Source: Haliclystus octoradiatus
Lineage: Eukaryota > Cnidaria > Staurozoa > Stauromedusae > Haliclystidae
Direction of reading: 5' to 3'
DNA: 64,000 bases
Assembly: GCA_916610825.1 (NCBI GenBank)
Contig: OU744450.1
Location: forward strand, 22,071,338 to 22,135,337
Part shown: in pieces, positions 913-63,432 of the stretch
How positions within the stretch are numbered: position 1 is the stretch's first letter
Layout: every line of letters begins with the position of its first letter
Translations under genes and position numbers: made by a program
The notes under the pieces: generated by a model
What the model saw: only the letters and a program-made list of their open reading frames with translations
Databases searched by the model: none
What the model was told of the DNA's origin: nothing

Positions 913-3900
913 TTAGTTGTCTGCAACAGGAATATCAATTTCTTGTTCTGGAAGGTCAATAGCCAATGCCTGGACAATCCAAGGATCACATTTAGAGCCT
1001 TCTCTGAATTCTTCCATAGTTAATTGACCATCGTGATTCTGAAACAGATATAATTTCAATATTCAAAATTGGATTTTTGGCTTTAATTCAGCAAAATATG
1101 TAATAGGTTAGGGTCAATGGTTGTCAAAACATTTTTAGTCTCCTGGCAACTAAAGAATGTTGGATAATTAATAGCTTTCAAATTACGAGAAAAAATAATG
1201 AAATCAAAATTTTGAATTGTGATTAATTTGAAGCATGATGATATCAATTCAAATAAAAACAGCTTTGCAAACTTTTTGAATTGGGGATCAAAATTTAATT
1301 AACTCGGAATTTATACTAGTCTTCCAGATGTTCCCCAGATCTCACACGGACACACTTTAAGACTACAGCCTTTATGATACCTAATGGCACCTGCGTACAA
1401 GCCATTAGGTACAATACTTAAATGGAGCATTATTGCTTGGTGTCGGGAAAGGCATTCGGCAATAGAATGCATACTTCAGATGTCAGTCAAATTAGGTGAA
1501 AGACGCTTCAACTTATAGCTTGATCAGTGCCCAGTTAAACTGATCCAGTTACGAATAAATAAGAAACTTAAAAAATTGTGATTAACCAATATGCAAAATT
1601 GTATTGTTATTGACTCTTTTAACAAGCATAAAATATTATGTTTGCACAATACACAATTGCACATCATCAAGAATGGATTGTCTACCTGTATTTGATAAAT
1701 GTAGGTTACCGATAGGATCCTACCCCTTCTGCCTCTGCTATTGCTCACCAACGTCAGATGTCTTTTTTAGGTCACATCGAAAGATCAAAGATGTATGCCC
1801 CTCAACCGCTGCATGACATCCTTCATTGGCAAACCGAAGGAGATGCTTCGACGGGGCTATGGGAGAGTAGTATCTTTTCATAATGTTTGGTATAGTGAAT
1901 TGTGTTATTTAAAAGTTTCTTTGTCAGCTATGTGGCTTTCTTTGTGTAGCATATATGTAAGGCGTAAGAGGGACGGCACATTCCTATAATGTGACTGTCT
2001 ATACTACTACTACTACTACTACCGATAGGCATATATCACAATGAAGTTTTGAAATCTGAGAACCTACTGAAAACGTACTGAGGGTGAGAATTCACTGAAT
2101 AGGCTACTGTGTTGGGCTCTTTTCTCATAGTAGCTTTCAAATTGTAAGGTGCAATTCAGTAGTTTATCAGTAAAATGAGAAGAATGTAGAATTAAGTGTC
2201 TGGTGAGTTTCAGTATGGTTTCAGTACTCAATCCCTATCCAGTATGTCTTCAGTAGCGATTCAGTATATCCAAGATTCTTAATGTGTGGTACATTGGTGC
2301 ATGGACAAACCATGTTAGATAAAAACCCCTTGAGAACTATACCTTATCCATTTTATTAAATATTTTATCTACTCTTTTCTCTGGTGTGTCTTCGTCAGAT
2401 GGTATATCAACCATATTTCCCTGGCAAACAAACAAAGAAATCATCAAGAGTAATAGACCTAATAATAGAAGTAATGAATTTAATATAGTAATATTCCAAT
2501 TGTTCTTGCATAAATTTAACATAATGTTGGATATTGACGTCATAAAAATACATATGAGACAGAATAGGTACTAAAAATTAAAAATCTTTATCATTTCTTA
2601 TCGAATCGGCTTCAAAGTTTTATCAACAAATTTTTTCAGTTGATATGCATTAGAATCTTCAATTTATTTGAAAGAGATTTCTTCAGTAGAACTAGAAAGC
2701 CCTATTAGTACAGTCAAACCTGTTATAACGGTCACCTCTATACAACGACCACTTGTCTATAGTGGTCACTCTTGCAATGTCTAAAATAGAATTTTCTATT
2801 GAATCAAGCATGTATATAAAGGCCACCTGTCTATAGTGGTTAGTTTGTCTAACTCTCGTAGCTGGCCGTTATACAGGTTTCACTGTAGTACATACTGTTA
2901 CTATCAGTAATTTTGATTCAGCAATACAACAAGCATTCCAAATCACAGCACGTTTTCATCTTTTTTGTTTATGAATTTTTTGTCAAGGATTGACCTCAGG
3001 TTCCAATAAAATGTTTTACTTTCCACAAACATCAACTTTTAGATAAAAATTTGAGTAATTTTAATGAAGTAAAAACATAAAATAGAATTTTATTTTTCAT
3101 ATCCTGCATTTTGCCTTTTCTTCTGAATATTCCTAGCCTTCTGCAGACTAGGTTTCTAAGTTTCCGGACTTTGCCGGACCCTGACTGGCTTCTAAATCTG
3201 TAAAATAAAATATCTACTTTCTTCTGAAGTTGCTCTGCGGTTTGCAATATAGGATCATAGGATCCCTACTTTTGTCTTTTATCCATTCAGCTTTGTGAAA
3301 GCAATTTAAAAGATGTCGGTTCTTGAAAAGAGTATGATTTACTTACAACCATGTGATAAATTGCTTGTACAATATGCAGCATCTCATTTCTTGTTATAAA
3401 GCCATCTTTATCAAGATCATATAGTGAAAATGCCCCTGTATTAACAAAATAGAAAAATACATGATCAAATAAGGTCAATTCATTCACAAAAGAAATAGGG
3501 TCTGTGTGAATTGCTCGGTTTCTCTGTCCGGGCCTCGTATCAGAATAAGATTGATGTCACATAATTATGCAAGATGATTCTCACCGGGATTCTCACATTG
3601 CTTTGTTCACTTCAGTTGACATGATTGCAATAAGTTCTATTTTAGGCTTCGTAGCTATGACAATTAATTGATTGTGGTGATGAATTTATTATCTTAGAAC
3701 AATAGATTTACGAGGCATCGATCAGAAACTTCCGCTCTACGATTTCGTAGAGTGGCTGGAAATAGAACTGTGCAAAACACACAGACCCTATTCTTCTGTG
3801 AATGAATCGCGGTCTGTAAACGCAGACTATAAATGTTCATGAACTGCAAGGGGTTATACCAAGTACAACACAAACATCATGCACACTGTCGCATCGTAAA

Positions 3901-45019: not shown

Positions 45020-45318
45020 TATGAAAGCCATGTAGCATGAGTTCTATTTATATTCAAAGTTTCTGTTGTAAGAAAAGCCAAAATTAGGTGTGGTCAAAAG
45101 GAATCATCCCAAATACAAAGGCATTGGATACGCATACATGCATACCTCATTTCAAAACCAAGAAAGTAAGAATATTTGACAGATATTTCTTTACGGCATA
45201 AGTGGTGTAAGATATATAATCCTAATGGTTTGAATAATTCGTCACACACCTACTATTACTAGCTGATATATTGATAAACCTTGTAGACAGAAAATATTAT
45301 TAAAAGTTTGATACAGAA
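45020..45318 (+). promoter_or_regulatory. Promoter and 5' UTR of gene A, conserved in B and C
   Basis: About 300 bp upstream of the ATG align with 52730-53045 (gene B) and 60020-60468 (gene C). Shared blocks include a TATA-like GATATATAAT at 45211-45220, about 100 bp before the ATG, followed by CCTAATGGT, then a CATTGATAAACCTT-like block and ATTATTAAAAGT just before the start. The spacing fits a TATA promoter with a short 5' UTR. Conservation is by eye; no transcript data. Confidence 0.55.
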
Positions 45319-48300
45319 ATGGCAAAACTAAGTTTATTCTTAATAATCTTGATTTTGTCAGTTTATCTACAAGCCATGATGGAAGCCTCAGAAACTGGCT
45401 ACGACAATGATGAACAAGTTGACAATCAAGAAATTACAAGGGTCGATGAAGACGACGCGGCTAAAAGTTCCCCTGTTTCTGCAAGACGTAGATTCGCATC
45501 AAATGCAGAGAAGATAAAAGCTTACCGAAGAAGAACGTCCAATTCTGAAGCAATTCCCAGAAGTAATAATGAAAAAGTTACAATTGACGATGAAGACGAC
45601 GCGGCTGAAAGTTCCCCTGTTTCTGCAAGACGAAGATTCGCTTCAAATGCAGAGAAGATAAAAGCTTACCGAAGAAGAACGTCCAATTCTGAAGCAATTG
45701 CCAGAATAAATAATGAAAAAGTTGACAATCAGGAGATTACAATTGACGATGAAGACGACGCAGCTGAAAGTTCCCCTGTTTCTGCAAGACGTAGATTCGC
45801 ATCAAATGCAGAGAAGATAAAAGCTTACCGAAGAAGAACGTCCAATTCTGAAGCAATTCCCAGAAGTAATAATGAAAAAGTTACAATTGACGATGAAGAC
45901 GACGCGACTGAAAGTTCCCCTGTTTCTGCAAGACGTAGATTCGCATCAAATGCAGAGAAGATAAAAGCTTACCGAAGAAGAACGTCCAATTCTGAAGCAA
46001 TTCCCAGAAGTAATAATGAAAGAGTTACAATTGACGATGAAGACGACGCGGCTGAAAGTTCCCCTGTTTCTGCAAGACGTAGATTCGCATCAAATGCAGA
46101 GAAGATAAAAGCTTACCGAAGAAGAACGTCCAATTCTGAAGCAATTCCCAGAAGTAATAATGAAAGAGTTACAATTGACGATGAAGACGACGCGGCTGAA
46201 AGTTCCCCTGTTTCTGCAAGACGTAGATTCGCATCAAATGCAGAGAAGATAAAAGCTTACCGAAGAAGAAGGTCCAATTCTGAAGCAATTGCCAGAAGTA
46301 ATAATGAAAGAGTTACAATTGACGATGAAGACGACGCGGCTGAAAGTTCCCCTGTTTCTGCAAGACGAAGATTCGCATCAAATGCAGAGAAGATAATAGC
46401 TTACCGAAGAAGAACGTCCAATTCTGAAGCAATTCCCAGAAGTAATAATGAAAGAGTTACAATTGACGATGAAGACGACGCGGCTGAAAGTTCCCCTGTT
46501 TCTGCAAGACGAAGATTCGCTTCAAATGCAGAGAAGATAAAAGCTTACCGAAGAAGAACGTCCAATTCTGAAGCAATTGCCAGAAGTAATAATGAAAGAG
46601 TTACAATTGACGATGAAGACGACGCGGCTGAAAGTTCCCCTGTTTCTGCAAGACGTAGATTCGCATCAAATGCAGAGAAGATAAAAGCTTACCGAAGAAG
46701 AACGTCCAATTCTGAAGCAATTCCCAGAAGTAATAATGAAAGAGTTACAATTGACGATGAAGACGACGCGGCTGAAAGTTCCCCTGTTTCTGCAAGACGA
46801 AGATTCGCTTCAAATGCAGAGAAGATAAAAGCTTACCGAAGAAGAACGTCCAATTCTGAAGCAATTGCCAGAAGTAATAATGAAAGAGTTACAATTGACG
46901 ATGAAGACGACGCGGCTGAAAGTTCCCCTGTTTCTGCAAGACGTAGATTCGCATCAAATGCAGAGAAGATAAAAGCTTACCGAAGAAGAACGTCCAATTC
47001 TGAAGCAATTCCCAGAAGTAATAATGAAAAAGTTACAATTGACGATGAAGACGACGCGACTGAAAGTTCCCCTGTTTCTGCAAGACGTAGATTCGCATCA
47101 AATGCAGAGAAGATAAAAGCTTACCGAAGAAGAACGTCCAATTCTGAAGCAATTCCCAGAAGTAATAATGAAAAGGTTACAATTGACGATGAAGACGACG
47201 CAGCTGAAAGTTCCCCTGTTTCTGCAAGACGTAGATTCGCATCAAATGCAGAGAAGATAAAAGCTTACCGAAGAAGAACGTCCAATTCTGAAGCAATTGC
47301 CAGAAGTAATAATGAAAAGGTTACAATTGACGATGAAGACGACGCGGCTGAAAGTTCCCCTGTTTCTGCAAGACGTAGATTCGCATCAAATGCAGAGAAG
47401 ATAAAAGCTTACCGAAGAAGAACGTCCAACTCTGAAGCAATTGCCAGAATTAATAATGAAAAAGTTACAATTGACGATGAAGACGACGTGGCTGAAAGGT
47501 CCCTTGTTTCTGCAAGACGTAGATTCGCATCAAATGCAGAGAAGATAAAAGTTTATCGAAGAAGAACGTCCAATTCTGAAGCAATTGCCAGAAGTAATAA
47601 TGAAAAAGTTACAATGGACGATGAGGACGACGCGGCTGAAAGTTCCCCTGTTTCTGCAAGACGTAGATTCGCATCAAATGCAGAGAAGATAAAAGCTTAC
47701 CGAAGAAGAACGTCCAATTCTGAACCAATTGCCAGAAGTAATAATGAAAAAGTTACAATTGACGATGAAGACGACGCAGCTGAAAGTTCTCCTGTTTCTA
47801 CAAGACGTAGATTCGCATCAAATGCAGAGAAGATAAAAGCTTACCGAAGAAGAACGTCCAATTCTGAAGCAATTCCCAGAAGTAATAATGAAAGAGTTAC
47901 AATTGACGATGAAGACGACGCGGCTGAAAGTTCCCCTGTTTCTGCAAGACGAAGATTCGCATCAAATGCAGAAAAGATAAAAGCTTACCGAAGAAGAACG
48001 TCCAATTCTGAAGCAATTGCCAGAAGTAATAATGAAAGAGTTAAAATTGACGATGAAGACGACGCGGCTGAAAGTTCCCCTGTTTCTGCAAGACGAAGAT
48101 TCGCTTCAAATGCAGAGAAGATAAAAGCTTACCGAAGAAGAACGTCCAATTCTGAAGCAATTGCCAAAAGCAATGTGAAAGGTAATTATAATATCAACTC
48201 CACTTTGTCCCTCCTTTATGAAACCCTTAGTTGTTGAAATGAATAAAACAGTGGATCCTCTATCCTTGCTTACCTCCAAAATGCATTTTTTTATATGCAT

Positions 48301-49212
48301 TGTAGATTCAATTGTAGGATAATCGTAAAATAATTAATTTTTATAGCCAGAAATTAGTGATCATCGAATTCAGTTGCTAATTTATGATTACACAAAATGT
48401 GGGTAATTCGCAAGTCTAAACTAGACCGTTTCTTTCGGGGAAAATTCGGTCGTGTGAGCTATGTTTATAGTATATAGTTTTTTGTTTAACGCTAATACTG
48501 ATTTGTAGCATTGCTCTTATGTATTTATTTTGATCAATGCAGGTATATATTTTCAAAGGTGTATACTACAAATAGTATGTAGTTATAATAAATATTTATT
48601 CCTTCCGTCCTGGTGTTGAAATCAAGATACTCTGCAAAGTATAACAATACCTCTTCATGGATATCCTTTTCTTTCATATTTTAGCCAAACTTTTTCAAAT
48701 ATTTCATATTTCATTCCGAAAATCGACAAATATTTTCCAATTTGAAGTGATCCCTTTCATTATATGAGAAAATGTTAAGAACAAATCAAAATTAAAAACA
48801 CGCTATCAAAATTGAAAATATTTCAAATTTCATGATCAGAAAATGTTCAAATATTTCATATTTTATTCGATCTTTAGGGCATGAGTATTTCATATTTCAA
48901 ACACCTTCAAAATGGCATCACTTTGATATATGATAGGATATGATATATATTTGTGAATCAATAATCAAGATCAAGATCAATAATAACTGGCAGATAGAAG
49001 AAGGTGTTAGCCTTCACTTACACATAGCCATAAAATGCATATTACTAAGTTTAAAACACATAGTTATAAGTATTGAAATTAAAGACAATGGAAAATTAAC
49101 ATTTACAATGCTTTGATAAATCAATTGCATCTAATCTTGATTTTATGGTTGCCAACGTTGGTGCAATTATAATTTCGTTTGGTATAGGTCGCTCCACCAC
49201 GAAATGATAATT

Positions 49213-49247
<35 letters not shown>

Positions 49248-49803
49248 TATCATCATATATTCAGAAAGCTGATAAGTTTTACAAAATTTTGCTCTCACCA
49301 AAACGATTGAATAAGTATAATAATAATTTGTACTAAAAAAAAGTAGGCGAGATAGTTAATACACATAAATGCTAACAATTAACAAACATAAAATCTAAAT
49401 ACATAAAATTCAAAGTTAATCGAATATGAACATAACTGCAGTAATTTTGTAAATATTTATGATATAAAATGAAGTTGTAACTATGCACTGTTGTAGATAT
49501 TGTCTGGGGGATACTTCTAAATAGGTAGTCTACGGAATGTGTCATTTTTCTTGTAGCTTTGGGGGTATTGTAATCAGAGCCATCTATTTTAAATAGATGG
49601 CTCTGATTGTAATTACTGCGTGTGACAGTGACGGTGTAAATATGTTGTGCTCTCTCTGATAAATATTTCGTGTCGTTTCAGATTCCGAAGAATATCTTGA
49701 TGATAGAGATGCAAGCGAAGAGAAAGAAAATGCTGATGCCGTGGATGCCGTTGATAAGCTTGATAATGAAGTAGATGAAATGATCACCAAATTACAGACT
49801 TAA
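45319..49803 (+). CDS. Gene A: secreted protein with 19 acidic/Arg-rich repeats, two exons
   Basis: Exon 1 is 45319-48181 and exon 2 is 49682-49803; the intron is phase 1 (G|AT) with a GTAATT donor and TTTCAG acceptor, giving 994 residues. Residues 1 to about 23 are a signal peptide (MAKLSLFLIILILSVYLQA). After a short acidic leader come 19 repeats of 48 residues (144 bp); one interval, leading into the third repeat, is 53 residues. Each repeat has an acidic block (IDDEDDAAESS), then RRR, the segment FASNAEKIKAY, RRR, and a polar link (TSNSEAI, then PRSNN or ARSNN). The flanking Arg-Arg-Arg sites fit furin or prohormone convertase processing. Exon 2 codes a 40-residue acidic tail, 16 of them Asp or Glu, with helix-like spacing. 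No cysteine occurs in the repeats. Candidate roles, all inferred: multi-copy neuropeptide, cationic antimicrobial peptide precursor, or charged matrix protein. Confidence 0.85.
48242..48247 (+). terminator. AATAAA just after the in-frame stop inside the gene A intron
   Basis: If the exon 1 donor is not used, translation continues 18 codons (GNYNINSTLSLLYETLSC) to a TGA at 48235-48237, and AATAAA follows four bases later. The arrangement is kept in genes B and C, so it may be a real intronic polyadenylation site. Confidence 0.45.
49210..49252. repeat. ATC microsatellite in the gene A intron
   Basis: Run of ATC triplets broken once; absent from the shorter intron of gene B. Another ATC run lies at about 41685-41708. 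Confidence 0.9.
49575..49605. mobile_element. 31-bp palindromic insertion with 8-bp target duplication in the gene A intron
   Basis: Ends CAGAGCCATCTATTT and its complement, flanked by ATTGTAAT at 49567-49574 and 49606-49613. The homologous intron of gene B (about 55350-55365) has a single ATTGTAAT and no insert, a clean empty site. Same ends as the 45-bp element at 40440. Confidence 0.85.
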
Positions 49804-50877
49804 TAAATATGGAATTATGGATGATGAAAGAAAAAGAGCATGGGACGTTAAACAAGAACGTCAATTGCTCATAATAAGTACTAAAGATCTTGAATCAAAT
49901 GAAATATACTTGCAAAGGTGCATTTACATTTACTAAGCAATCTTGAGACCATGTTCGAGAAAAATGAATTCAAGTAAATATTTAAATGTTGTTAATTACT
50001 CTTATGTCGTATAAAAATTTTCATTTTACGTTATACTTCTCTGTCTTCGAATGGCTGTATAATTTGTAACAACCCATTTGCAGTTTTATTTTTTTATATT
50101 CCTAGTAACTTACAGTATGATCAGTCTACAAACCGGGCAAGCTAGTAGCTCCTCTTCTGCACCGGGGTGGTTGATACTTTACCTACCAGGGATATAGGAA
50201 AAGGATAGGAAAACGTCGCCTATTTGACATGCTACACTTTTGATGGCAATGGCCATTTTGTCAGTTCATCAACCCAGCGATCATCTAGCCTGCGTGAAAA
50301 CCTACTGTTTTCCTTCGTCAAGGTTGGGTCTGCGAAACGCCTGCAGAATAAAGGGTTACCACACACGTTGCCGTGTTTGTATTCTCAGTTGTACAATCAG
50401 CTTCAATCGAATCAAATTACTTTTAAGCTTTGAAAAATAACTAAAGGAAACAAGAATAAGAAATCATAGGAATTTGTACCATTTGTCTCTAAGATCTCGT
50501 TGGAATAGCAACTCAATTAGAGAGCTTGCAGAATCTCTGAAAATCTTCCATATGAGTGTCTGATTATTGAGTATTTTTCCAGTTGTGACATGATTTTACA
50601 CTCCTGTTCATCGTAAACAAGACTTTACACATGGAGATACAAAAGTAACACTCGTAATAGTAATTTGTTAATGAAGTTCGGCTGCTCTAGCATCTGAGCC
50701 AACCCCCTATTGTAAAGTGCAAACTTTCATTTAATTTAGGACATGTTTATTCTACAGACAGGCTGCCAAGTAGAAATAGTGTGACATCACACAGCCCACG
50801 ATTTCTTCACAAAAGAATATGATTCACCTATTCTATTGTGAATGAATTTCGGCCTGTAAGTAGTATTTGAAACGGTG

Positions 50878-50940
50878 GTAACGCCCTACCGAAGGCACCC
50901 TTGCCACTCCTCTATTTCTAGCAGAGTGGCTGGGCTTAAA
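50878..50940 (-). mobile_element. SINE tail fragment
   Basis: Reverse complement of the hairpin and GGTGCCTTC...GTAGGGCG tail of the SINE at 26990. The sequence just left (CTGTGAATGAAT...GGCCTGTAAG) also resembles 3780-3835. Confidence 0.55.
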
Positions 50941-50984
50941 GACCTTAAATAAAAGGCTTTCATAACATTGATGAAGATGCACAA

Positions 50985-51185
50985 TAATTTTTACAATCTT
51001 ATACAAGGCAGAAAAGGGAATAATAGATATTATCAAGGGAATGATTTATCCGAATATTTCAGCAAACAGAGATTTTATATCGTCACATATTCTCGTTTTA
51101 ATGCAGATCCTAATTATAGTAGTACACCATAAAAATATAGTAATTAAATCATTTTCTATGTTATCAGGCATCGATTCAATGGAAC
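50985..51185. repeat. Inverted duplicate of 44860-45000
   Basis: Shares AATCTTATACAA, GAATATTTCA-CAAACAGAGA and TCATTTTCTATG-TATCAGGCA with the reverse strand just upstream of gene A. The copy here has about 35 extra bases in the middle. Confidence 0.7.
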
Positions 51186-52729
51186 AAGTTGATGACTATA
51201 AAATACCACACACGTACATAGACGGTTCTGAGATACAGATATTTGATGTAACTAGTCACCAAGTTACACTCCGAAATGAGTGTAATTTCAGCAAAATAAT
51301 GTTGTATTTATACCCTTACATTTAAATATCCTACATGTCATAATGTGTACTGTGCCTTTCATTTTAATTATTTTCAACTATTTGAATATGTTTTAAATGT
51401 CCTTGCTCTTAAAGGGGTGTGGGAGCTATAAGCGTGTGCCTTCCCAAAAGACTTTTGAACAGACCAAAACATTGATGGAAAATGGATGGATCTGCTAGGA
51501 TGGATCCCTCGTATTTGACGTTTGAGAGTCCCGTATATTTGCTACCAGATTGCCATTTGCTCGTAATCTTCTTTCCCTCGTATTTGGTATTTCATTGTCT
51601 CTTATATAGTTTCCAAAATAACTGTATTCACTTGCAATCTGCCCTCTTTACTACGTAGTGTTTACTGAATTATCTCTTGTAGCTGCGACAGGCTCTCTGT
51701 TAACTTGTAATCTACTTGTTCTTGTATTATAGGACTTTCAGTGTTCCGTCTGTAATTTGCTACACGCTCGCTATAGTTCCTTTTAACCCGACGTAAGCAT
51801 ACAACCCATAATTAAATTGTAATTAACTTGATAATATTGTGCGCATTATTTAATTGTCTGTATTTTTCTATCTTCTTTAGTGAAATAATTAATAAGTAAC
51901 AAATAATTCAGTCGATTCTAACGGTGTTGTCGAATTCAAAGTGTCATACTCCCAATTCACAACAAATACATTTTCTAGCTTTTTAGAACTTTTGGGGTAG
52001 CTTTTTCAAGTTTCAGAACTCTTTGGATACTTCACTGTTTGGAAGTGACACCCCGCCCACCCACCCCCTGTATTGGAGGGAAGTGGAACTGGAACTGGAA
52101 CTGTATGGAGCTCTATTGAATAGCGTGCCCGATAGCGCGGCATTGCGAACCCGTTGCGAACAAATAAAAAAACAATTTTTTGTTTATTTTTCCGTCAAAA
52201 CTTGGCTAATCGAAGAAACAAAGCATTGGAAGGAAGCCTCCGGGTTAAGACGAATCCAATAATATAAGTCATGCATTGATTGGATCTGAAACGGCTTCCC
52301 TGATCCCCGCCGTTGTACACATTACAGACACACAAATTGAATAGCGTCAATTTAGAAGTAGATTGCTGTAATAATAACTGTAGCTGGCCATCAACAAGGA
52401 GAGGATTAATGAGGTTTAGCATGACCGTTGATAAACAGAGCCTCTATGAAGGTGGACCAGCTTTGCTAATATAGATGTTTTCGCCACGAAGGGCACTTGA
52501 TCTGTGTAGTATTACGTAAGCTTGTAGTGGATCGTTTTATGTCTATTGTCTTATACATAATGTTTTTGCTTTGTTAACTGTAAGTACAGCTTCCGCTTGT
52601 AATCACGTATGCCTTGTAAATGAAAATCACTGTCTGTAATGTATTCAAGCTCTTCATGTCTGCCGCTCATATCACAATACTTTACCCAAACAAGAATGTG
52701 GCATGCTATTTCTAAATTAGCCTTTATGA

Positions 52730-53045
52730 GTTCTGTTTGCATTCAAAGTCTCCGTTGTAAGAAACGCCATTCTGCGTTAACAATTAGGTGTGGATCAAAC
52801 GAATGCCTAATTCAAAGTATGTTCAAAGGCATGGACCACACGTATACAATACACACTTCATTCCAAAATCATGAAAGTATTATCATTTGACAAATATCTT
52901 TTCACGGCATTAGGTGGTGCAAGATATAATCCTAATGGTGTTATTGCTGAATAATTGGTCACATATCTGCTTTTATCAGCGGATACATTGATAAACCTTA
53001 AATTGATATATTGTTAGACAGAATACATTATTAAAAGTTACAGAA
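52730..53045 (+). promoter_or_regulatory. Promoter and 5' UTR of gene B
   Basis: Homologous to the region before gene A. The AGATATAATCCTAATGG block at 52922-52938 is the TATA-like element; CATTGATAAACCTTA and ATTATTAAAAGTTACAGAA precede the ATG. Confidence 0.55.
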
Positions 53046-55505
53046 ATGGCAAAACTAAGTTTATTCTTAATCTTGATTTTGTCAGTTTATCTACAAGTCA
53101 TGATGGAAGCCTCAGAAAATGATTACGACCATGATGAACAAGTTGACAATCAAGAGATTACAAATGACAATGAAGATGTCGCCGTTGCAAGTTCCTTACG
53201 AAGACGCAGGCGCAGATCTTCATCAAATGCAGAAAAGATCATAGGTTCCCGAACAAGAATTTCCAACAACGAAGCAATCGCCAAAAGTAATGATGAACAA
53301 GTTGAGGATCAGGAGATTACAAGTGACAATGAAGATGTCGCCGTTGCAAGTTCCTTACGAAGACGCAGGCGCAGATCTTCATCAAATGCAGAAAAGATCA
53401 TAGGTTCCCGAACAAGAATTTCCAACAACGAAGCAATCGCCAAAAGTAATGATGAACAAGTTGAGGATCAGGAGATTACAAGTGACAATGAAGATGTCGC
53501 CGTTGCAAGTTCCTTACGAAGACGCAGGCGCAGATCTTCATCAAATGCAGACAAGATCATAGGTTCCCGAACAAGAATTTCCAACAACGAAGCAATCGCC
53601 AAAAGTAATGATGAACAAGTTGAGGATCAGGAGATTACAAGTGACAATGAAGATGTCGCCGTTGCAAGTTCCTTACGAAGACGCAGGCGCAGATCTTCAT
53701 CAAATGCAGAAAAGATCATAGGTTCCCGAACAAGAATTTCCAACAACGAAGCAATCGCCAAAAGTAATGATGAACAAGTTGAGGATCAGGAGATTACAAG
53801 TGACAATGAAGATGTCGCCGTTGCAAGTTCCTTACGAAGACGCAGGCGCAGATCTTCATCAAATGCAGACAAGATCATAGGTTCCCGAAGAAGAATTTCC
53901 AACAACGAAGCAATCGCCAAAAGTAATGATGAACAAGTTGACGACCATGAGATTACAAGTGACGATGAAGATGTCGCCGTTGCAAGTTCCTTACGAAGAC
54001 GCAGGCGCAGATCTTCATCAAATGCAGACAAGATCGTAGGTTCCCCAAGAAGAATTTCCAACAACGAAGCAATCGCCAAAAGTAATGATGAACAAGTTGA
54101 CGACCAGGAGATTACAAGTGACTATGAAGATGTCGCCGTTGCAAGTTCCTTACGAAGACGCAGGCGCAGATCTTCATCAAATGCAGAAAAGATCATAGGT
54201 TCCCGAACAAGAATTTCCAACAACGAAGCAATCGCCAAAAGTAATGATGAACAAGTTGACGATCAGGAGATTACAAGTGACAATGAAGATGTCGCCGTTG
54301 CAAGCTCCTTACGAAGACGCAGGCGCAGATCTTCATCAAATTCAGACAAGATCGTAGGTTCCCGAAGAAGAATTTCCAACAACGAAGCAATCGCTAAAAG
54401 TAATGATGAACAAGTTGACGATCAGGAGATTACAAGTGACAATGAAGATGTTGCCGTTGCAAGCTCCTTACGAAGACGCAGGCGCAGATCTTCATCAAAT
54501 GCAGACAAGATCATAGGTTCCCGAAGAAGAATTTCCAACAACGAAGCAATCGCCAAAAGTAATGATGAACAAGTTGACGATCAGGAGATTACAAGTGACG
54601 ATGAAGACCTCGCCGTTGCAAGTTCCCCGGAATTTGCAAGACGCCGCAGAAACGCATCTAATGCAGAGAAGATTACAAGTTTTCGAAGAAGAAAGTCCAA
54701 TTCCGAAGCAATTGCCAAAAGCAATGAGAAAGGTAATACCTGTAATATTAACTCTACTTTGCCCCTCTTTTTATGAAACCCTTAGTTGTTGAAATGAATA
54801 AAGTAGTGGACCCTCTTGCACGTGTTGTGTTATCTTGGTATCTGATTGGATTCTCTATGTTTACCTTCAAAAGTCATTATATATGCATGGTAGATTTAAT
54901 TGTAAAATAATCGTAAAGGGATTATTTTTTTATAGTCGTCAGGAATTAATGTGATCAACAAATTTGGTTGTGAATATTGATTTGTAGTATCGCTCTTATG
55001 TATTTATTTTGATCAATGCAGGTATATATTTCCAAAGGTATACTGTATACTACAAATAGTATGTAGTTATAATAAATATTTATCCCTTCCGACCTGGTGT
55101 TGAAATCAAGATACTCTGCAAAGTATAACAATGCCCCTTCATGGAGATCCTTATCTTTCATATTTTAGTCAAATTGTTTCGAATATTTTACTTCATTCCC
55201 AAAATCGACAAATATTTAACTGCAATAATTTTGTAAATATTTATGATATAAAGTAAAGTTGTAACTATGTACTGTTGTAGATATATGTGTAGGGGGTACT
55301 TCCAAATAGGTGGTCTACGGAATGTGTAATTTTTCGTGTAGCTTTGGGGGTATTGTAATTACTGCGTGTTGTTTCAGATTCCGAAGAATATCTTGATGAT
55401 AGAGATGCAAGCGAAGAAAAAGAAAATGCTGAAGAATACTATGTGGATGCCGTTGATAAGCTTGATAATGAAGTAGATGATATGATCACCAAATTACAGA
55501 CTTAA
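53046..55505 (+). CDS. Gene B: secreted protein with ten acidic/Arg-rich repeats, two exons
   Basis: Exon 1 is 53046-54732 and exon 2 is 55378-55505 (GTAATA donor, TTTCAG acceptor, phase 1), for 604 residues. The signal peptide is nearly that of gene A. Nine repeats of 53 residues (159 bp) carry an acidic block (QEITSDNEDVAVASS), a run of six arginines after Leu, SSSNAEKIIGS, a basic triplet (RTR or RRR) and ISNNEAIAKSN. The tenth repeat is different (SSPEFARRRRNASNAEKI) and matches the unit of gene C. Exon 2 gives the same acidic tail as gene A with a small replacement (EEYYV). Near-identical repeats argue for recent unequal exchange. Head-to-tail paralogue of genes A and C; function unknown. 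Confidence 0.85.
54797..54802 (+). terminator. AATAAA inside the gene B intron
   Basis: Unspliced reading ends at TGA 54774-54776 (tail GNTCNINSTLPLFL); AATAAA follows 20 bases later in a block conserved with genes A and C. Confidence 0.45.
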
Positions 55506-55810
55506 AAAATATGAAATTATGGATGATGAAAGAAAAAGAGCATGGGACGTTAAACAAGAACGTCAATTGCTCATAATAAGTACTAAAGATCTTGAATCAA
55601 ACGAAATACTTGCAAAGGTGCATTTACATTTACTAAGCAATTTCGAGAACATGTGCGAGAAAAATGAATTTTAGTAAATATTTAAATGTTGTTAATTACT
55701 CTTATGTCGTATAAACATTGTCATTTTGTATTATACTTCTCTGTCTTCCAATGGCTCTTATTTGTAACAACCCACTTGTATTTTTATTTTTATATTCCTA
55801 GTAACTTGCA

Positions 55811-56850
55811 TTCTAGAATATCACCAAGGTTTTCTGCGATCTGATTGGTCGAAAGAGCGTGCATGAAATCCTAGGGTAAAACATGGCTTCGAAAACCGGG
55901 AAAAACCGCAAGGTTCAAAAAGTTTGATCTGTGATAAAATACAGAATTTATAGTTTTTTGATAACAACCCAATAAATATCTCAATAATGGCTACGATATA
56001 CAAAACGACATTTAGCTCAAGATGTTTATATTTATTGAAATGCGTGGTGAATGAGTTATTGGTCGTGTAACATGCAAAATAAAAACACAGAATGAAAGAC
56101 AATTATAGGCTACGTCACTGTTCCAAGTTAAACCTAAAATATAAATAACAATAACTGCATTAATTTACTAAAGAACTATTGTACCACTTATATTACAGAC
56201 GTTTTTGTACATGTCTTTCTTTATTCGACAATATCTATCTTGTTGTGGGATTCTCTTCGCTTGGTTTATGAATTGAAATTGAATTTTAAATTGTGAATTC
56301 ATGAATTGAAAATTCGCCGTCGAATGAGATTCCGACATTTGTTTTATTTTAGAAAAGGGTTACCACATGCTTGCAAATGTTTGTATTCATATTTACTGAA
56401 CTCGAAAATGTTGGGAGACACTCGGGAAGCTAAAAATCACTCGCTCGGAGCTCGTGATTTTTTAGCGCTTCACTCGTGTCTCCCAACAAATTCTCGTTTA
56501 GTAAATATGAATACAAACATGGCTAGTATGTGGTAACCCTTTATTCTAAAATATCACGAAGGTTTTCTGCGATCTGATTGGTCGAAATAGCGTGCATAAA
56601 ATCCTAGGGTAAAACATGGCTCCGAAAACCGGGAGAAACCGCTAGCTTCAAAAGTTCGATCTTTGATAAAATATAGAAATTATAACTTTCCGATAACAAT
56701 CCAATAAATATCTCAATTATGACACCGATTTACAAAATGATATTTAGCTGAAGATCTTCATATTTATTGAAAAGCGTCGTAAATGAGTTGTTCGCCGTGC
56801 AGCATGCAAAATAAAAACACAGAATGAGATACAATTATAGGCTACGCTGT
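55811..56850. repeat. Composite repeat: two direct copies around a foldback core
   Basis: 55811-56115 and 56543-56850 are direct copies (CTGCGATCTGATTGGTCGAA, CTAGGGTAAAACATGGCT, CAAAATAAAAACACAGAATG). Between them, 56353-56420 and 56480-56545 are inverted arms (GGGTTACCACA, GTTTGTATTCATATTTACT, TGTTGGGAGACACTCG). A further arm copy lies at 56960-57050. Confidence 0.75.
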
Positions 56851-57059
56851 TTCAAGGTAAACCTTAAATTTAGATAACATTTAGTACATCAATTTCTAGA
56901 GAACTATGTACAATTTATATTACAGAAGTTCTTGGATGTGTCTTTCTTAATTCAACAATATATATATTTACTCGCTCGGAGCTCGTGTCTCCCAACATTT
57001 TCTCGTTTAGTAAATATGAATACAAACATGGCAAGTGTGTGGTAACCCTATATTCATCT

Positions 57060-58290
57060 GTACTTATAAAACTCTTACGGAAGGAATGATCTTGATTTAG
57101 CTTTCGCTGCAATCATTGCGCAATGCGCGGAGGATTTTAAATCTGGAGTGAACAAAACTCCAAGATCCTTGATTTGCTTAAACTGAGCACAACTCTTTGT
57201 CTTCTAATGTGTACGATTGGTGAATAGTATTTGTGTCACCAAGAGAACACACAACATTTATGAAAAGCTAGCTTTAGCTGCCATGTCTGAACCCAAGTAG
57301 CAACTTTGTTTAATGTTTCCTATAAATTACAATTTGAATCGTTCCTTGAAGTAAAGATCTTTGCGTCATCCGCAAATAGTTTTATATGGCAGTCTTCTTC
57401 AAGGCAAGTAACGATGTCATTAATAAATACGATAAATAGCAACGGACCAAGAACAGAGCCTTGGGGTACGCCACTGTCAACTGGTAACATTTTCGAAAAA
57501 ATGTTTTCAATGCAAACAGATTGTGTTCGGTCATGTAGGAAAGAGGATATCCACTGTAACAGTTCAAAGTTTATGCCATATGCTTCTAGCTTTGTAATAA
57601 ATCTTTTGTGTTCTACAGTATCAAAAGCTTACTAAAATCCATATAGACTGTGTCAGTGAGTAATTTTCTATTGATTGCTTGTGACCATAAATTCAGTGTA
57701 GATAATAGCTGTGTGAAAGTTGAACGACGTTCTATAAACCCATGCTGTTCTTTCGTAATAATTTTGTATCTTAGGAAGTATTTCTTCATTTGGTTAGAGA
57801 TAATTGATTCCATAACTTTGCAAGTTGTGCTTGTTAAAGAAATAGGGCGATGAATTTTGATAAAGGGAAGTTTTCCTTTTTAAAAATTGGAATTACAATT
57901 GCAGTTTTCTATATAGATGGTATAGTTGACCTGACTGCATACAGTAGATGGTTCATACAGTATGGATAGAGGCAAAGTAATATCATTGACAATAGTCTTT
58001 AAAAATGTTGCTGGATAACCATCAGGGGATTGTGATGCTTTATTAGGTAGTTGGAGTAAAACCTTTAGAATTTCTTTCGGGGAAAAATCTATAAACGACA
58101 GAGATGTAGTACTCTCGATCTGCGGCTGAAAATCCGGATTGTACTCATCATCTTGTGTGTGTAAATACTGGCAAAGTAGTTGCTAAAAAGTTCAAATTTT
58201 TCATTTAGATATGTTACTTTTTCTCCAGTATTATTTTTTACAGCAGGTATTGAAGGGTGTGGCTGAAATTTGCTATTAACGAACAAACTG
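57060..58290 (-). pseudogene. LINE reverse transcriptase relic (CR1/Jockey type)
   Basis: Reading on the minus strand in several frames: LNEKFELFSNYFASIYT (about 58215), YMDFSK (about 57650), GVPQGSVLGPLLFIVFINDI (57470-57410), LFADDAKI (about 57370) and a downstream AHCAMIAAKAKS region. The order and the GVPQGS and FADD motifs are those of a non-LTR reverse transcriptase. A single-base loss after YMDFSK shifts the frame, and other stops follow. The endonuclease part is absent. Confidence 0.85.
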
Positions 58291-58299
58291 AAAACAGCC

Positions 58300-59189
58300 G
58301 TACCGGCACGCCTAAAAAAGCAGTTGGAATATACGCCGTACTTTCGTGAGGCGCATTATTCTGTTGATCTAATGCCTTATGCAAAGCTAATTAGCAAGAT
58401 ATGAACTGCTAGTTAAAACAGTAACATATTTTAATTTTATGCTTTCTTTATGTATTTATTAAGGAAATATGTAAGGGAAAGTTCTACTTTCCTATATAAT
58501 CGGATCAGTATAATTGACAAATAAACAACAACAACATTTGTCAGAGTTTTTTAACATAAGAAGAAATGGGCCTGCCACGTCATCATCAATTCTCATCTGT
58601 AATTGTTTGTTACCACAGCCTGTTTATCATTACTACATTACAGTTATTATTAATTGTATTTTAACCTAATTACAAGCAGCATAAACACAATTTCCAATAG
58701 CTAGACTAAAGCAGACAATAAAAATGTATAAATTCTGATTTTGCTATACAATTTTGATTGCGATCAAATTATTTTACGGGCTGCGCAAACTTTGGTAAAG
58801 TACCGCAAATATAGCAAGATAGCCAAGGCCTAATGTTTCAGAAATCGAGGAAAATGATATAATAATAAAAAATAGATAGATATATAGATAGATAGATAGA
58901 TGAATGTTTATTTGGTTACATAAACGATTGATACAATGTTAATTTTACAGGTTATGTGTTTCAAGGGCTAATTTTATTTGAATATATAATCATTTCTTGG
59001 TAACTATAATAGACTATTGGCCTATTGACAATATAATATGTAATGGACTATTGACAGTGATATACGGCTATCAAATTAGTAACTAGTAAAAGTCAGAATT
59101 GAAGTCTAAATGCATCTACTGATCAATGCTAGACTCAATGCTATCAGTCCTTTGAAAAAAAGTTTGTATAACTTAAAGGTTCTGAATAA

Positions 59190-59225
<36 letters not shown>

Positions 59226-60019
59226 TGATCAATATCTTTAGACGGATCGGTGACGAACTCTAAAAATGATTTGGATCAGTTCATTTATTATTGACCCAGT
59301 GTAATCAGATCCCATAAAATAGATATAATCTAATCTAGTTGATAAAAAAAAAAATAAGCATGTAAATATTAGCAATTATGAGAAGTACAAAGCCTTCGCG
59401 CTTTTCTACCCCTTGTATATATCAAAATTTAAAGAAGGTCCACATCAGCCAAGTGCTGCCAGGATCTCGACCTGCTCAAATAAATCAGAAATACATACAT
59501 ACATACTGATCAATGCAGTTCATTATAGTCAAATTGGAGTTTGTGATGGAAATAAATGATAAATGTTCTCGAATCCCTCCAAAGATTATTTTCATTTAGT
59601 TCCATTAAATTTAGAGCATCAACACAATAGCCCAATTATGAGCCTCATTCTGATGTAGGACGATTGATGACGAATTCAGGGTTTTTTATTTCAGAAAATT
59701 GAAGCATTACTGTTTCTGAGATATGTGGTATACTTTACTTCAAGTGCTCTTGGGTGTGTTTGTGATTATTGTGAACACTGTGATACACTACGAGTGTTGA
59801 CCTCTTTTTCGTGCAAATTAGATAGAAATGTATCAAGTTCAGATAGAAATAGTCTTATTTTTCTGGTCATGCTGATGTAAAAATATCTTTTGTTCAATTT
59901 GTTCAATTTGAACTTTATTTTGACTGGACTATAAGTAACCGTGGTTAGTAATTGTACGAGAACAAAAGCGGTGGTGTAGCATTACGTTTTAGATTTTTAA
60001 TAAATCAATTTACCATGCT
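58300..60019. other. Intergenic region upstream of gene C
   Basis: LINE-tail-like (AAC)n near 58525, a GATA run at 58875-58900, a GAT run at 59192-59225, and an (ATAC)n run near 59490-59505; otherwise unique AT-rich DNA without a supported gene. Confidence 0.5.
59191..59226. repeat. GAT microsatellite
   Basis: Twelve or so GAT units after AATAAAT, possibly a retroelement tail. Confidence 0.9.
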
Positions 60020-60468
60020 GTGATCAATTCAAAGTATGTTCAAAGGCATGGACGTATACAATACACAGTAGATCAGTAGTGTAGTATAGACAGTCACATT
60101 ATAGGAATGTGCCTTTCCTCTTACGCCTTAATGCATATTTGCTACACAAAGAACGCCATAAATCGCGGTCAGACATGGCTGACAAAGAAACTTGTAAATA
60201 CCACAATTCACGATACAAAACATTATGAAAAGATACTGCTCTCCCATAGCCCCGTCTAACCATCTCCGTGCAATACAAACTTCATTCCAAACTCATGAAA
60301 GTATTATCATTTGACAAATATCTCTTCACGGCGTAAGCGGTGCAAGATATAATCCTAATGGTGTTATTGCTGAATAATTGATCACAAATCTACTTTTACT
60401 AGCTGATACATTGATAAACCTTATATTGTTATATTATTAGACAGAAAATATTATTAAAAGTTACAGAA
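60020..60468 (+). promoter_or_regulatory. Promoter of gene C, split by a LINE-tail insertion
   Basis: The flanks match the gene B promoter, but 60069-60270 is a foreign repeat (minus-strand copy of the ACT-tailed family). It breaks the block GTATACAATACA; CAATACA is found on both sides and is probably the target duplication. The proximal TATA-like block at about 60345 is intact. Confidence 0.55.
60069..60270 (-). repeat. ACT-tailed interspersed repeat, copy 3, inside the gene C promoter
   Basis: Reverse-oriented copy with GACAGTCACATTATAGGAAT and CTCTCCCATAGCCCCGTC. It interrupts sequence that is continuous in the gene B promoter. Confidence 0.75.
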
Positions 60469-61039
60469 ATGGCAAAACTAAGTTTATTCTTAATCTTGAT
60501 TTTTTCCGTTTATCTACAATTCATGATGGAAGCCACAGAAACTGGTTACGACCATGATGAACAAGTTGAAAATCAAGAGATTACAAGTGACGAAGAAAAT
60601 GTCGCGGTTGCAAGTTCCCCGGAGTTTGCAAGACGCCGCAGACATGGATCAAATGCAGAATCCCCGGAATTTGCAAGACGCCGCAGACATGGATCAAATG
60701 CAGAATCCCCGGAATTTGCAAGACGCCGCAGACATGGATCAAATGCGGAATCTCCGGAATTTGCAAGACGCCGCAGACACGGATCAAATGCAGAATCCCC
60801 GGAATTTGCAAGACGCCGCAGACACGGATCAAATGCAGAATCCCCAGAATTTGCAAGACGCCGCAGACATGGATCAAATGCAGAATCCCCGGAATTTGCA
60901 AGACGCCGCAGACACGGATCAAATGCAGAATCCCCGGAGTTTGCAAGACGCCGCAGACACTGATCAAATGCAGAGAAGATTACAAGTTCCCGAAGAAGAA
61001 GGTCCAATCCTGAAGCAATTGCCGAAAGCAATGCGAAAG
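60469..61039 (+). pseudogene. Gene C: third paralogue, nonsense-truncated and lacking exon 2
   Basis: The frame opens with the same signal peptide and leader, then eight copies of a 15-residue unit (SPEFARRRRHGSNAE, 45 bp). A TGA at 60961-60963 interrupts copy eight; the other copies have GGA there, so one G-to-T change made the stop, leaving 164 residues ending in RRRRH. Past the stop the original frame stays open to a GTTTAT donor after 61039 in the ancestral phase. No sequence like the acidic exon 2 of genes A and B is seen before homology resumes in their 3' flank near 62930. A LINE-tail insertion also sits in the promoter. Most likely a decayed paralogue, though a transcript ending at the AATAAA at 61105 could still make a short secreted Arg-rich protein. 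Confidence 0.75.
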
Positions 61040-63432
61040 GTTTATACCTGTAATATTAACTCTACTTTGCCCCTCTTTTTATGAAACCCTTAGTTGTTGA
61101 ACTGAATAAAATAGTGGACCCTCTTGCACGTGTTGTGTTATCTTGGTATCTGATTGGATTCTCTATGTTTACCTTCAAAAGTCATTGTATATGCATGGTA
61201 GATTTAATTGTAAAATAATCGTAAAGTGATTATTTTTTTATAGTCGTCAGGAATTAGTGATCAACAAATTTGGTTGTGAATATTGATTTGTAGTATTTCT
61301 CTTATGTATTTATTTTGATCAATGCAGGTATATATTTCCAAAGGTATACTGTATACTACAAATAGTATGTAGTTATAATAAATATTTATCCCTTCCGACC
61401 TGGTGTTGAAATCAAGATACTCTGCAAAGTATAACAATGCCCCTTCATGGAGATCCTTATCTTTCATATTTTAGTCAAATTGTTTCGAATATTTCATATT
61501 TCATTCCGAAAATCGACAACCTTTTAAAATTGAAGTGATCTGTTTCCTCATATTAGAAAATGTTGAGAACAAATCAAAATTGAAAATACGCTATCAAAAT
61601 TGAAAATATTTCAAATTTCATGATCAGAAAATGTTCAAATATTTCATATTTTTTTTGACATTTGGGGCAGTATTTCATGTTTCAAATACTTCTATAAAGG
61701 TGGCTCTTTAATCATCATCATCGTCATTAACCTTGTTACTGTATTTAGATTTTATGTGTGATATATTTTGTCCTTGTGACAGACAAATAAAATATACCAT
61801 ATTTATCATATAATATCATCATTGCCACGGTAATATTTCGAATGCATTTATAAGGAATAAGATTGAAGTAGTAATAAGAGTAGTACGAGGCAGTAAAAAC
61901 AAGGTAGTCAAATCTTTCGTAGCCATTTTGAAATTTTTATCTTTAATATTTTTGGTATGAAAATGATGCATAATTCTTTGGTATAATATTATAAATCAAT
62001 CCAGAAAGAAAAAACATTAAAAATGTTACGCCGGAACTAGTGCCAGGCTCTTTTCGTCAAAATAAAATGGCTGTTCTTAAAAACGTCGGGTGTAAAATTG
62101 CTTTGCATAAATCATAATTATTTTGCTGATAATTGTACCTTGACATATTTACTTGGATTCTACCGTGTGCTTTTTTTGATTGGTGAAGATACAAAAAAGT
62201 TGTGGTGTTTTGAAGTTTCAAAACGCAGTCACGCTAAAGCAGTTTCTAAACATCTAATTGAATAACTTTTTGTAACATTAGTGAAGGCACTCCGTTCGTA
62301 TATACGTCCTATTGGTCTCTCTGTTGGTGATGATGAGAGTGAAAGGCTCGGTTGAAGGTATTGGTATGGTATGATCGGGTTTGTGTGATATATGATATGT
62401 GATTTGTTATTGTGATCTAGAGTTATATATGATATGTGATTTATTATTGTGATCTAAAGATCAAGGAGGCGTGTATGTGTTAAATGACGTGTATGAACTG
62501 TAAAGGTGTATCTATGACTGCTGAATTATTTGTTTGGGGCTATTGTGACGTAATGCATTATAAGGAATAGCTGACTTCATGTAATAAGAGTTGTTGTGAT
62601 ATGTATGTTAAATTTAAATTATAGTGGAATGGTTAACTGTGACGATGTGATGTAATTATGTTTGTATTTTATGCTGAACTGGATTATATGACGTTTTTGT
62701 ATTAAATTACTATAGTTTCATTAGTTTATTCATATGGTTTATTAGAGCTGTTGTTAACAGAAAGTCATTTCGAATAGAGTAGCACGTTGACGTCATATAT
62801 GTCAACAGCGGAACACAAATGATGATGGATTGAAATTGTTCCCGTGTTAATAGTTTAATGTTTAAATATGGTTTAGATTGGATATGTTTATTCCGTATCG
62901 TGTAAAATTGTTCCTGTCTTGATGACTTTGTGATGCTCATAATAAGTAGGAAAGACCTTGAATCATATGAAATATACTTGCGAAAGTGCATGTTTTACAT
63001 TTATTAAACAGTTTTAAGACCACGTGTGAGATCAAATGTGTTAAAGTACATCTTTAAATGCTGTTAATAACTTCAATAACTCCCGTAATATAACTACACT
63101 TTTGTCGTATTGAATTATATAATCATTTTATATTATACTTATTCTTTAAATAGCCCTCTCTTCAGGAAGTCAGCCCCCTTGTTGGGAAAATCCAGGTGAT
63201 ACCCCTGTTAATGGCAGTCCCATATTTGTCTGATCCGATAATCCGATAACTGTTTATATTCAGAACGAGGTTAATCTTGTTTAATGCACAAAGAGGCACA
63301 TGAAACAGAGCGCGAGATAAAGGGAATCGAAATTTGAAAATCAATTGAAAACTTGAAAGCCTGAAGAACTGGCGATATTTCCAGCAAATTAAACCATATC
63401 TCTTATCTTATTGTGGAAGGCAAATACCTGAA
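61040..63432. other. 3' region of gene C
   Basis: 61040-61700 aligns with the introns of genes A and B, then homology is lost. It returns at about 62930-63150, matching the 3' flank downstream of exon 2 of genes A and B. The ancestral exon 2 should lie between and is not visible. Confidence 0.55.
61105..61110 (+). terminator. AATAAA downstream of gene C exon 1
   Basis: Counterpart of the intronic AATAAA of genes A and B. As exon 2 is missing here, this is the likely 3' end of any gene C transcript. Confidence 0.45.

Follow-up and report, generated by a model that had tools for sequence, protein, structure and literature searches.

The window analysed here is a 64,000-nucleotide stretch of the stalked jellyfish Haliclystus octoradiatus (contig OU744450.1, positions 22,071,338 to 22,135,337, forward strand). 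It holds a cluster of three repeat-protein genes, g1, g2 and g3, which lie head-to-tail on the + strand and were all confirmed in the window. The features of the cluster are as follows (positions within the window; UTR, untranslated region).

45138-45318, + strand: 5′ flank of g1, alignable with g2 and g3, with the common ATATAATCCTAATGG stretch and the 5′ leader (three-way alignment, BLASTN; genome search, 79% identity)
45319-48181, + strand: g1 exon 1, with a signal-peptide-like start, an acidic stretch and 19 units (48 residues; second unit 53; last unit cut to 38)
48182-49681, + strand: g1 phase-1 intron, GT...AG
49682-49803, + strand: g1 exon 2, acidic C-terminus DSEEYLDD...MITKLQT
52847-53045, + strand: 5′ flank of g2 (BLASTN, genome search, three-way alignment)
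53046-54732, + strand: g2 exon 1, with a signal-peptide-like start, an acidic stretch, nine units of 53 residues and a terminal unit of 38 residues that has the archetype sequence
54733-55377, + strand: g2 phase-1 intron, GT...AG
55378-55505, + strand: g2 exon 2, acidic C-terminus
60271-60468, + strand: 5′ flank of g3 (BLASTN, genome search, three-way alignment)
60469-60963, + strand: g3, with a signal-peptide-like start, an acidic stretch, seven full SPEFARRRRHGSNAE units and one more, the eighth, cut short by TGA at 60961-60963
60964-61039, + strand: remnant of the g3 terminal unit past the TGA, to the former exon end
61891-62900, + strand: two different dispersed repeats (61891-62271 and 62271-62900) at the expected exon 2 site of g3
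62934-63072, + strand: remnant of the family 3′ UTR downstream of g3 (BLASTN, 78% identity to g2 and 81% to g1)

The predicted proteins of g1, g2 and g3 are 994, 604 and 164 residues long, the last from a coding sequence at 60469-60960. Tandem Repeats Finder scored the arrays at 4942 (g1; period 144, 18.9 copies), 2775 (g2; period 159, 9.4 copies) and 648 (g3; period 45, 8 copies). The open frames of g1 and g2 run for 977 and 589 codons from stop to stop, and the sole length change among the g1 units is a multiple of three. Together, these frame lengths and this length change are far beyond chance. The splice donors of g1 and g2 both leave phase 1.

An earlier reading of the letters alone (the sequence-only reading) had proposed three head-to-tail paralogues with a common start, 5′ region and repeat logic, and the alignments bore this out. 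Matches to the 43-residue start were 84-98% identical in the genome search. A g2 stretch made up of the 5′ region and the first coding bases was 91% identical to g3 and 79% to g1. The three 5′ flanks aligned with one another, apart from the farthest part taken. The start of each protein is hydrophobic (12-mer Kyte-Doolittle maximum 2.6-3.2); since the signal peptide was assessed on hydropathy alone, these starts are called signal-peptide-like. The phase-1 intron and acidic last exon that the same reading had assigned to g1 and g2 also appeared in the gene models.

The whole assembly (261,861,806 bases in 33 contigs) was searched for further copies; the counts are those of the best candidates scored, among which no further family copy was found. 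All 13 matches of the g2 5′ region fell in the three-gene cluster. The signal-peptide region matched at three places and exon 2 at two, again all in this cluster. With the initial 103 residues of g2 as query there were 29 matches, all within the g1-g3 frames.

One repeat unit in three forms

The sequence-only reading had described three repeat lengths of 48, 53 and 15 residues. The lengths are correct, and the units are not separate. Those of 48 and 53 residues are the same unit, the shorter having lost 15 bp. All nine full units of g2 have 53 residues; the second unit of g1 also keeps 53, and its remaining full units have 48, the difference being VDNQEIT versus VT (15 bp). The 15-residue unit of g3 is the SPEFARRRR..SNAE sub-piece of the g1/g2 unit, and SPEFARRRR also starts the terminal unit of g2. 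In each protein, the acidic stretch that follows the start belongs to the repeat unit, as its acidic part. The common layout is thus a predicted signal peptide, then repeated pairs of an acidic and an Arg-rich part, then an acidic tail, with g3 lacking exon 2. The array unit of g3 has four Arg and two Glu; it is without the acidic block and keeps the Arg cluster and the 11-mer.

Paired Arg clusters stand exactly 11 residues apart in 19/19 units of g1, in 9/10 units of g2 and in 7/7 intervals of g3, RTR being counted as a cluster; the tenth g2 unit has PRR. The residues that flank the clusters vary among the paralogues, and the clusters are longer in g2 (RRRRRR) than in g1 (RRR). The pattern R-X-[K/R]-R was matched once in g1, 28 times in g2 (overlapping matches counted) and 8 times in g3. 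The chains of g1-g3 contain no Cys after residue 24.

The g3 frame is open across its seven full units and meets the in-frame TGA within the eighth. Apart from the stop codon, its terminal unit differs from that of g2 by five nonsynonymous and three synonymous changes. In BLASTN, g2 and g3 are 95% identical from the end of exon 1 over about three quarters of the g2 intron; their 3′ UTRs align too, at 78%. Exon 2 of g2 lies within 55219-55568, a stretch that had no BLASTN partner at g3, and exon 2 of g3 is missing. Of the two dispersed repeats at this site, the first (61891-62271) has partial copies elsewhere that are 84-91% identical and at three places adjacent and inverted; the second (62271-62900) has at least 10 copies elsewhere, 99-100% identical over the whole length (best 40 of 443 candidates scored). 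The loss of exon 2 is probably recent, because the inserted repeat has such nearly identical copies elsewhere.

Two further observations concern the dispersed repeats themselves. Copies of the second often adjoin 66-bp pieces that recur about every 134 bp. When part of the repeats inserted near g3 was folded as a single strand, nothing emerged (z 0.47).

Predicted processing and competing explanations

We infer that g1-g3 are secreted multi-copy precursors of non-amidated peptides, a reading to which we give an even chance. If the genes are expressed, the signal peptide, indicated by hydropathy and presumably cleaved, would target the protein for secretion. Cleavage behind the Arg clusters by proprotein convertases and removal of the arginines by a carboxypeptidase would then free many non-amidated 11-residue peptides with a SNAE or SNAD core. 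The predicted peptides are FASNAEKIKAY (g1), mainly SSSNA[D/E]KI[I/V]GS (g2) and HGSNAESPEFA (g3). As spacers, the acidic stretches may, together with the acidic last exon, offset the positive charge until the chain is cut.

The spacing of 11 residues, kept although the flanking residues differ among the paralogues, points to such a precursor. So does the array of g3, which has dropped the acidic part while keeping the cluster and the 11-mer. The genome matches the convertase-type P_proprotein domain in 10 spots, which are fragments of exons and should not be counted as 10 genes; three of them contain a stop. For scyphozoan pQPPGVW precursors, the published account gives RRR as a processing site (PMC6909153).

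Variation within the g3 array is also consistent with a protein-coding role. Its seven full units have five variable sites, with 5 synonymous and 0 nonsynonymous changes (P 0.0009-0.004, depending on transition weight); adding the eighth unit brings the count to 6 synonymous changes and one nonsense change, which is the TGA (P 0.001-0.007). These P values assume independent events. Four of five control frames gave 0 synonymous and 5 nonsynonymous changes. It looks as if g3 was constrained as a protein while its array spread. A further point in favour is that g1 and g2, compared outside the arrays, have changed more at synonymous sites than at nonsynonymous ones.

Two neuropeptide precursors of the same genome served as yardsticks. 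The GRFamide precursor (G000:C4:34914196-34914560) has 10 copies of QFLRGRFG and an acidic tail, and its QFLRGRF core is the published staurozoan GRFamide core (PMC6909153). The RPRSamide precursor (G000:C1:14645437-14646053, − strand) has 16 RPRS copies, of which 14 are RPRSGK. A search of the genome for the pQPPGAWamide pattern gave no exact match. Like these preprohormones, g1-g3 combine a hydrophobic start, many repeats, basic cleavage sites and acidic spacers with the absence of Cys after residue 24 and a near-zero net charge. The net charge per residue lies between -0.05 and 0.06 in all five, and the charged fraction is 0.47-0.49 in the yardsticks versus 0.39-0.40 in g1-g3. By spacing, each of g1-g3 has at least three similar peptides between basic sites, as in a preprohormone; the cutting is predicted, and RTR and PRR are weak sites for it. 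The yardsticks differ from g1-g3 in their Gly-amidation sites, their short units and their repeats, which are old and have diverged synonymously. The units of g1-g3 are long and homogenised and their 11-mers vary. The amidation signal G-[R/K] occurs 21 and 15 times in the yardsticks if the ones within GRF cores are included.

Several points weigh against the peptide-precursor reading. G-[R/K] is absent from g1, g2 and g3 (0 in each). The sequence-only reading had suggested neuropeptide precursors; the peptide-precursor class fits the 11-residue spacing and the yardstick-like charge best, and the classic amidated type fits poorly. With its single R-X-[K/R]-R, g1 would need dibasic cleavage. In g2, the second cluster is RTR in five of nine full units and PRR in one, which are poor cleavage sites. 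The 11-mers of the three genes have only SNA[E/D] in common, and the 11-residue spacing is partly due to common descent.

Substitution counts add to these points. The g1 array has 9 synonymous and 16 nonsynonymous changes (18 full units; P 0.15) and the g2 array 5 and 10 (nine units; P 0.32), neither off the neutral expectation. The 11-mer of g1 alone has 3 and 2 (P 0.08). With pS and pN as the proportions of synonymous and nonsynonymous differences, the 11-mer of g2 has pS 0 and pN 0.047, and the starts of g2 and g3 have pN 0.063 versus pS 0.046. One of the five control frames, the second reverse-complement frame, does as well as the true frame: it gives 9/16 in g1, 6/9 in g2 and 5/0 in g3, and its wobble bases coincide with those of the true frame. 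In the yardsticks, the cores of GRFamide (10/10 copies) and RPRSamide (14/16 copies) are alike at pS of about 0.85, near saturation. With pS of 0.04-0.06, the arrays of g1 and g2 are young or homogenised by comparison and say little on peptide constraint. The yardstick and g3 units were picked by exact peptide pattern (GRFamide 10/10; RPRSamide 14/16, with one RPRSGR and one RPRSEK left out; g3 7/8), so that their low pN is partly by construction; the pS values are unaffected.

In a more specific form of the precursor reading, Staurozoa would have a class of non-amidated peptides, 11 residues long and with a SNAE core, that serve in signalling or defence. They would be cut out of rapidly turning-over minisatellite precursors at the Arg clusters, and g3 would be reduced to the minimal cut site plus peptide, still constrained as a protein. 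We put this forward as an unlikely speculation.

Alternatively, though we think this rather unlikely, the chains may stay uncut as disordered block polyampholytes. Their acidic and Arg-rich blocks would associate with each other or with polyanions into a coacervate, mucus, adhesive or capsule-matrix material. Adhesive glandular pads are described as widespread in Staurozoa (PMC5088631). The total charge is nearly balanced (g1 +198/-192, g2 +108/-122), and charges are segregated beyond shuffled units, of which only 3, 0 and 6 in 2000 attained the observed value. The lack of Cys, the homogenised arrays of different copy number and the longer Arg clusters of g2 would suit such a material. However, near balance is not special, as the GRFamide and RPRSamide precursors of the same genome share it, and the array unit of g3 is without an acidic block. 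A secreted chain with Arg clusters would probably encounter convertases. Tyr (22/994 in g1, 6/604 in g2) and Gly (1 in g1, 9 in g2) are scarce, unlike in many adhesive proteins.

The sequence-only reading had also considered self-neutralising cationic peptides, and the classic membrane-active type fits poorly. In this scheme, which we regard as doubtful, cleavage at acidic residues would free cationic segments of about 33 residues from a self-neutralised antimicrobial precursor, in the style of Hydra arminin and periculin. Cnidarian neuropeptide precursors are reportedly cleaved at acidic residues (PMC6909153), and the cationic halves have a net charge of +7 (g1) and +8 (g2). As presented in PMC10945409, the Hydra antimicrobial peptides form charge-biased, tandem-duplicated, taxon-restricted secreted families. 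The g1-g3 family resembles arminin and periculin in being charge-biased, predicted to be secreted, clustered as paralogues and taxon-restricted as far as tested. The Hydra families are described there as bipartite, with a complex Cys pattern; g1-g3, in contrast, are multi-repeat, Cys-free and not amphipathic beyond shuffles. Hydrophobic residues make up 0.21-0.30 of the cationic segments, and 430, 475 and 981 of 1000 shuffles (g1, g2, g3) had a helical moment at least as high as theirs. The trimmed 11-mers would carry charges of +1 (g1), 0 (g2) and -2 (g3), and that of g1, 0.55 hydrophobic, is yet not amphipathic beyond shuffles (442/1000). Of the features of Hydra-type antimicrobial peptides, the biased distribution of acidic and basic residues was thus found, in chains predicted to be secreted, and a Cys-stabilised or amphipathic active part was not.

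It is very improbable that the arrays are selfishly expanding coding minisatellites with little product function and g3 already decaying: the near-neutral array variants of g1 and g2, the g2-g3 start values and the truncated g3 with its lost exon 2 and recent repeat insertions agree with this, but the long stop-free frames of g1 and g2, the 5:0 count in g3 (6:1 with the TGA) and the synonymous excess between g1 and g2 outside the arrays (12.5 differences in 64 synonymous sites versus 17.5 in 260 nonsynonymous sites; Fisher P 0.007, rounded counts) speak against it.

Relatives, surroundings and meaning

Exon 1 proteins of g1, g2 and g3 had no credible match in Pfam, NCBIfam or PDB, the kind of match to a well-described family that could have overturned the sequence-only reading. 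The Pfam family VtrC scored 49.1 bits on g1, above its cut-off of 27; this is a sum over repeats, and no single stretch passes. TRAM stayed below its cut-off, also as a sum over repeats with no stretch passing alone. The Pfam matches of g2 and g3 had E values of 0.22 or worse. NCBIfam gave two weak matches, far below or below cut-off, and none for g1. A phmmer search of PDB gave none for g2 (E up to 10) or g3 and one for g1 (E 0.26). Prokaryote contigs searched with g2 gave 21 pattern matches and IMG/VR searched with g1 gave 31, none of them confirmed. Rfam had no match in the window at gathering scores. No family recognisable as g1-g3 was found in the open-licence PMC literature on charged repeat precursors, antimicrobials and adhesives. 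The proposal of an unrecognised tandem family therefore stands within its own genome, Pfam, NCBIfam, PDB, the prokaryote contigs (g2) and IMG/VR (g1), where the family appears to be without known relatives.

The known kind closest at hand is the multi-copy secreted precursor, of which g1-g3 would be a variant. Thypedin is said to be a multi-copy precursor of the non-amidated Hydra peptide pedin, and would be, like g1-g3, a medusozoan multi-copy precursor. The title of its reference names it a beta-thymosin repeat-like protein, in which it differs from g1-g3. A beta-thymosin repeat identity, considered owing to thypedin, was dropped, as exon 1 of g1-g3 had no such Pfam match. In plant Ib-AMP-type precursors, acidic propeptides alternate with cationic Cys-rich peptides behind a signal peptide, an alternation also seen in g1-g3.

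Elsewhere in the window, reverse transcriptase fragments (PF00078) lie between g2 and g3 at 57323-57879 (− strand) in two broken frames, one stretch above cut-off and one just below. An EF-hand exon (PF00036) was found at 3290-3556 (− strand), and its sequence resembles that of a neuronal calcium sensor. The mitochondrial contig of the assembly (18,316 bp) carries cox1 and its other long coding frames on opposite strands, with 8 TGA codons inside cox1. It also has two tRNA genes (ARAGORN, bacterial code), long extra open reading frames near both ends and Pro/Gly-rich frames on both strands near 16.4-17.1 kb. We take this arrangement to be a medusozoan layout.

Under either reading, cut or whole, the finding is a small gene family of one animal, predicted from sequence. 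If the proteins stay whole, they would be block polyampholytes of natural origin with almost balanced charge, and might be of use in the design of materials for underwater conditions. A published neuropeptide screen relied on the C-terminal Gly amidation signal GR/GK (PMC6909153). If the peptides are real, the stalked jellyfish would have a peptide system that such amidation-site screens miss by design, and the locus would show a multi-copy precursor gaining and losing units within a small tandem family.

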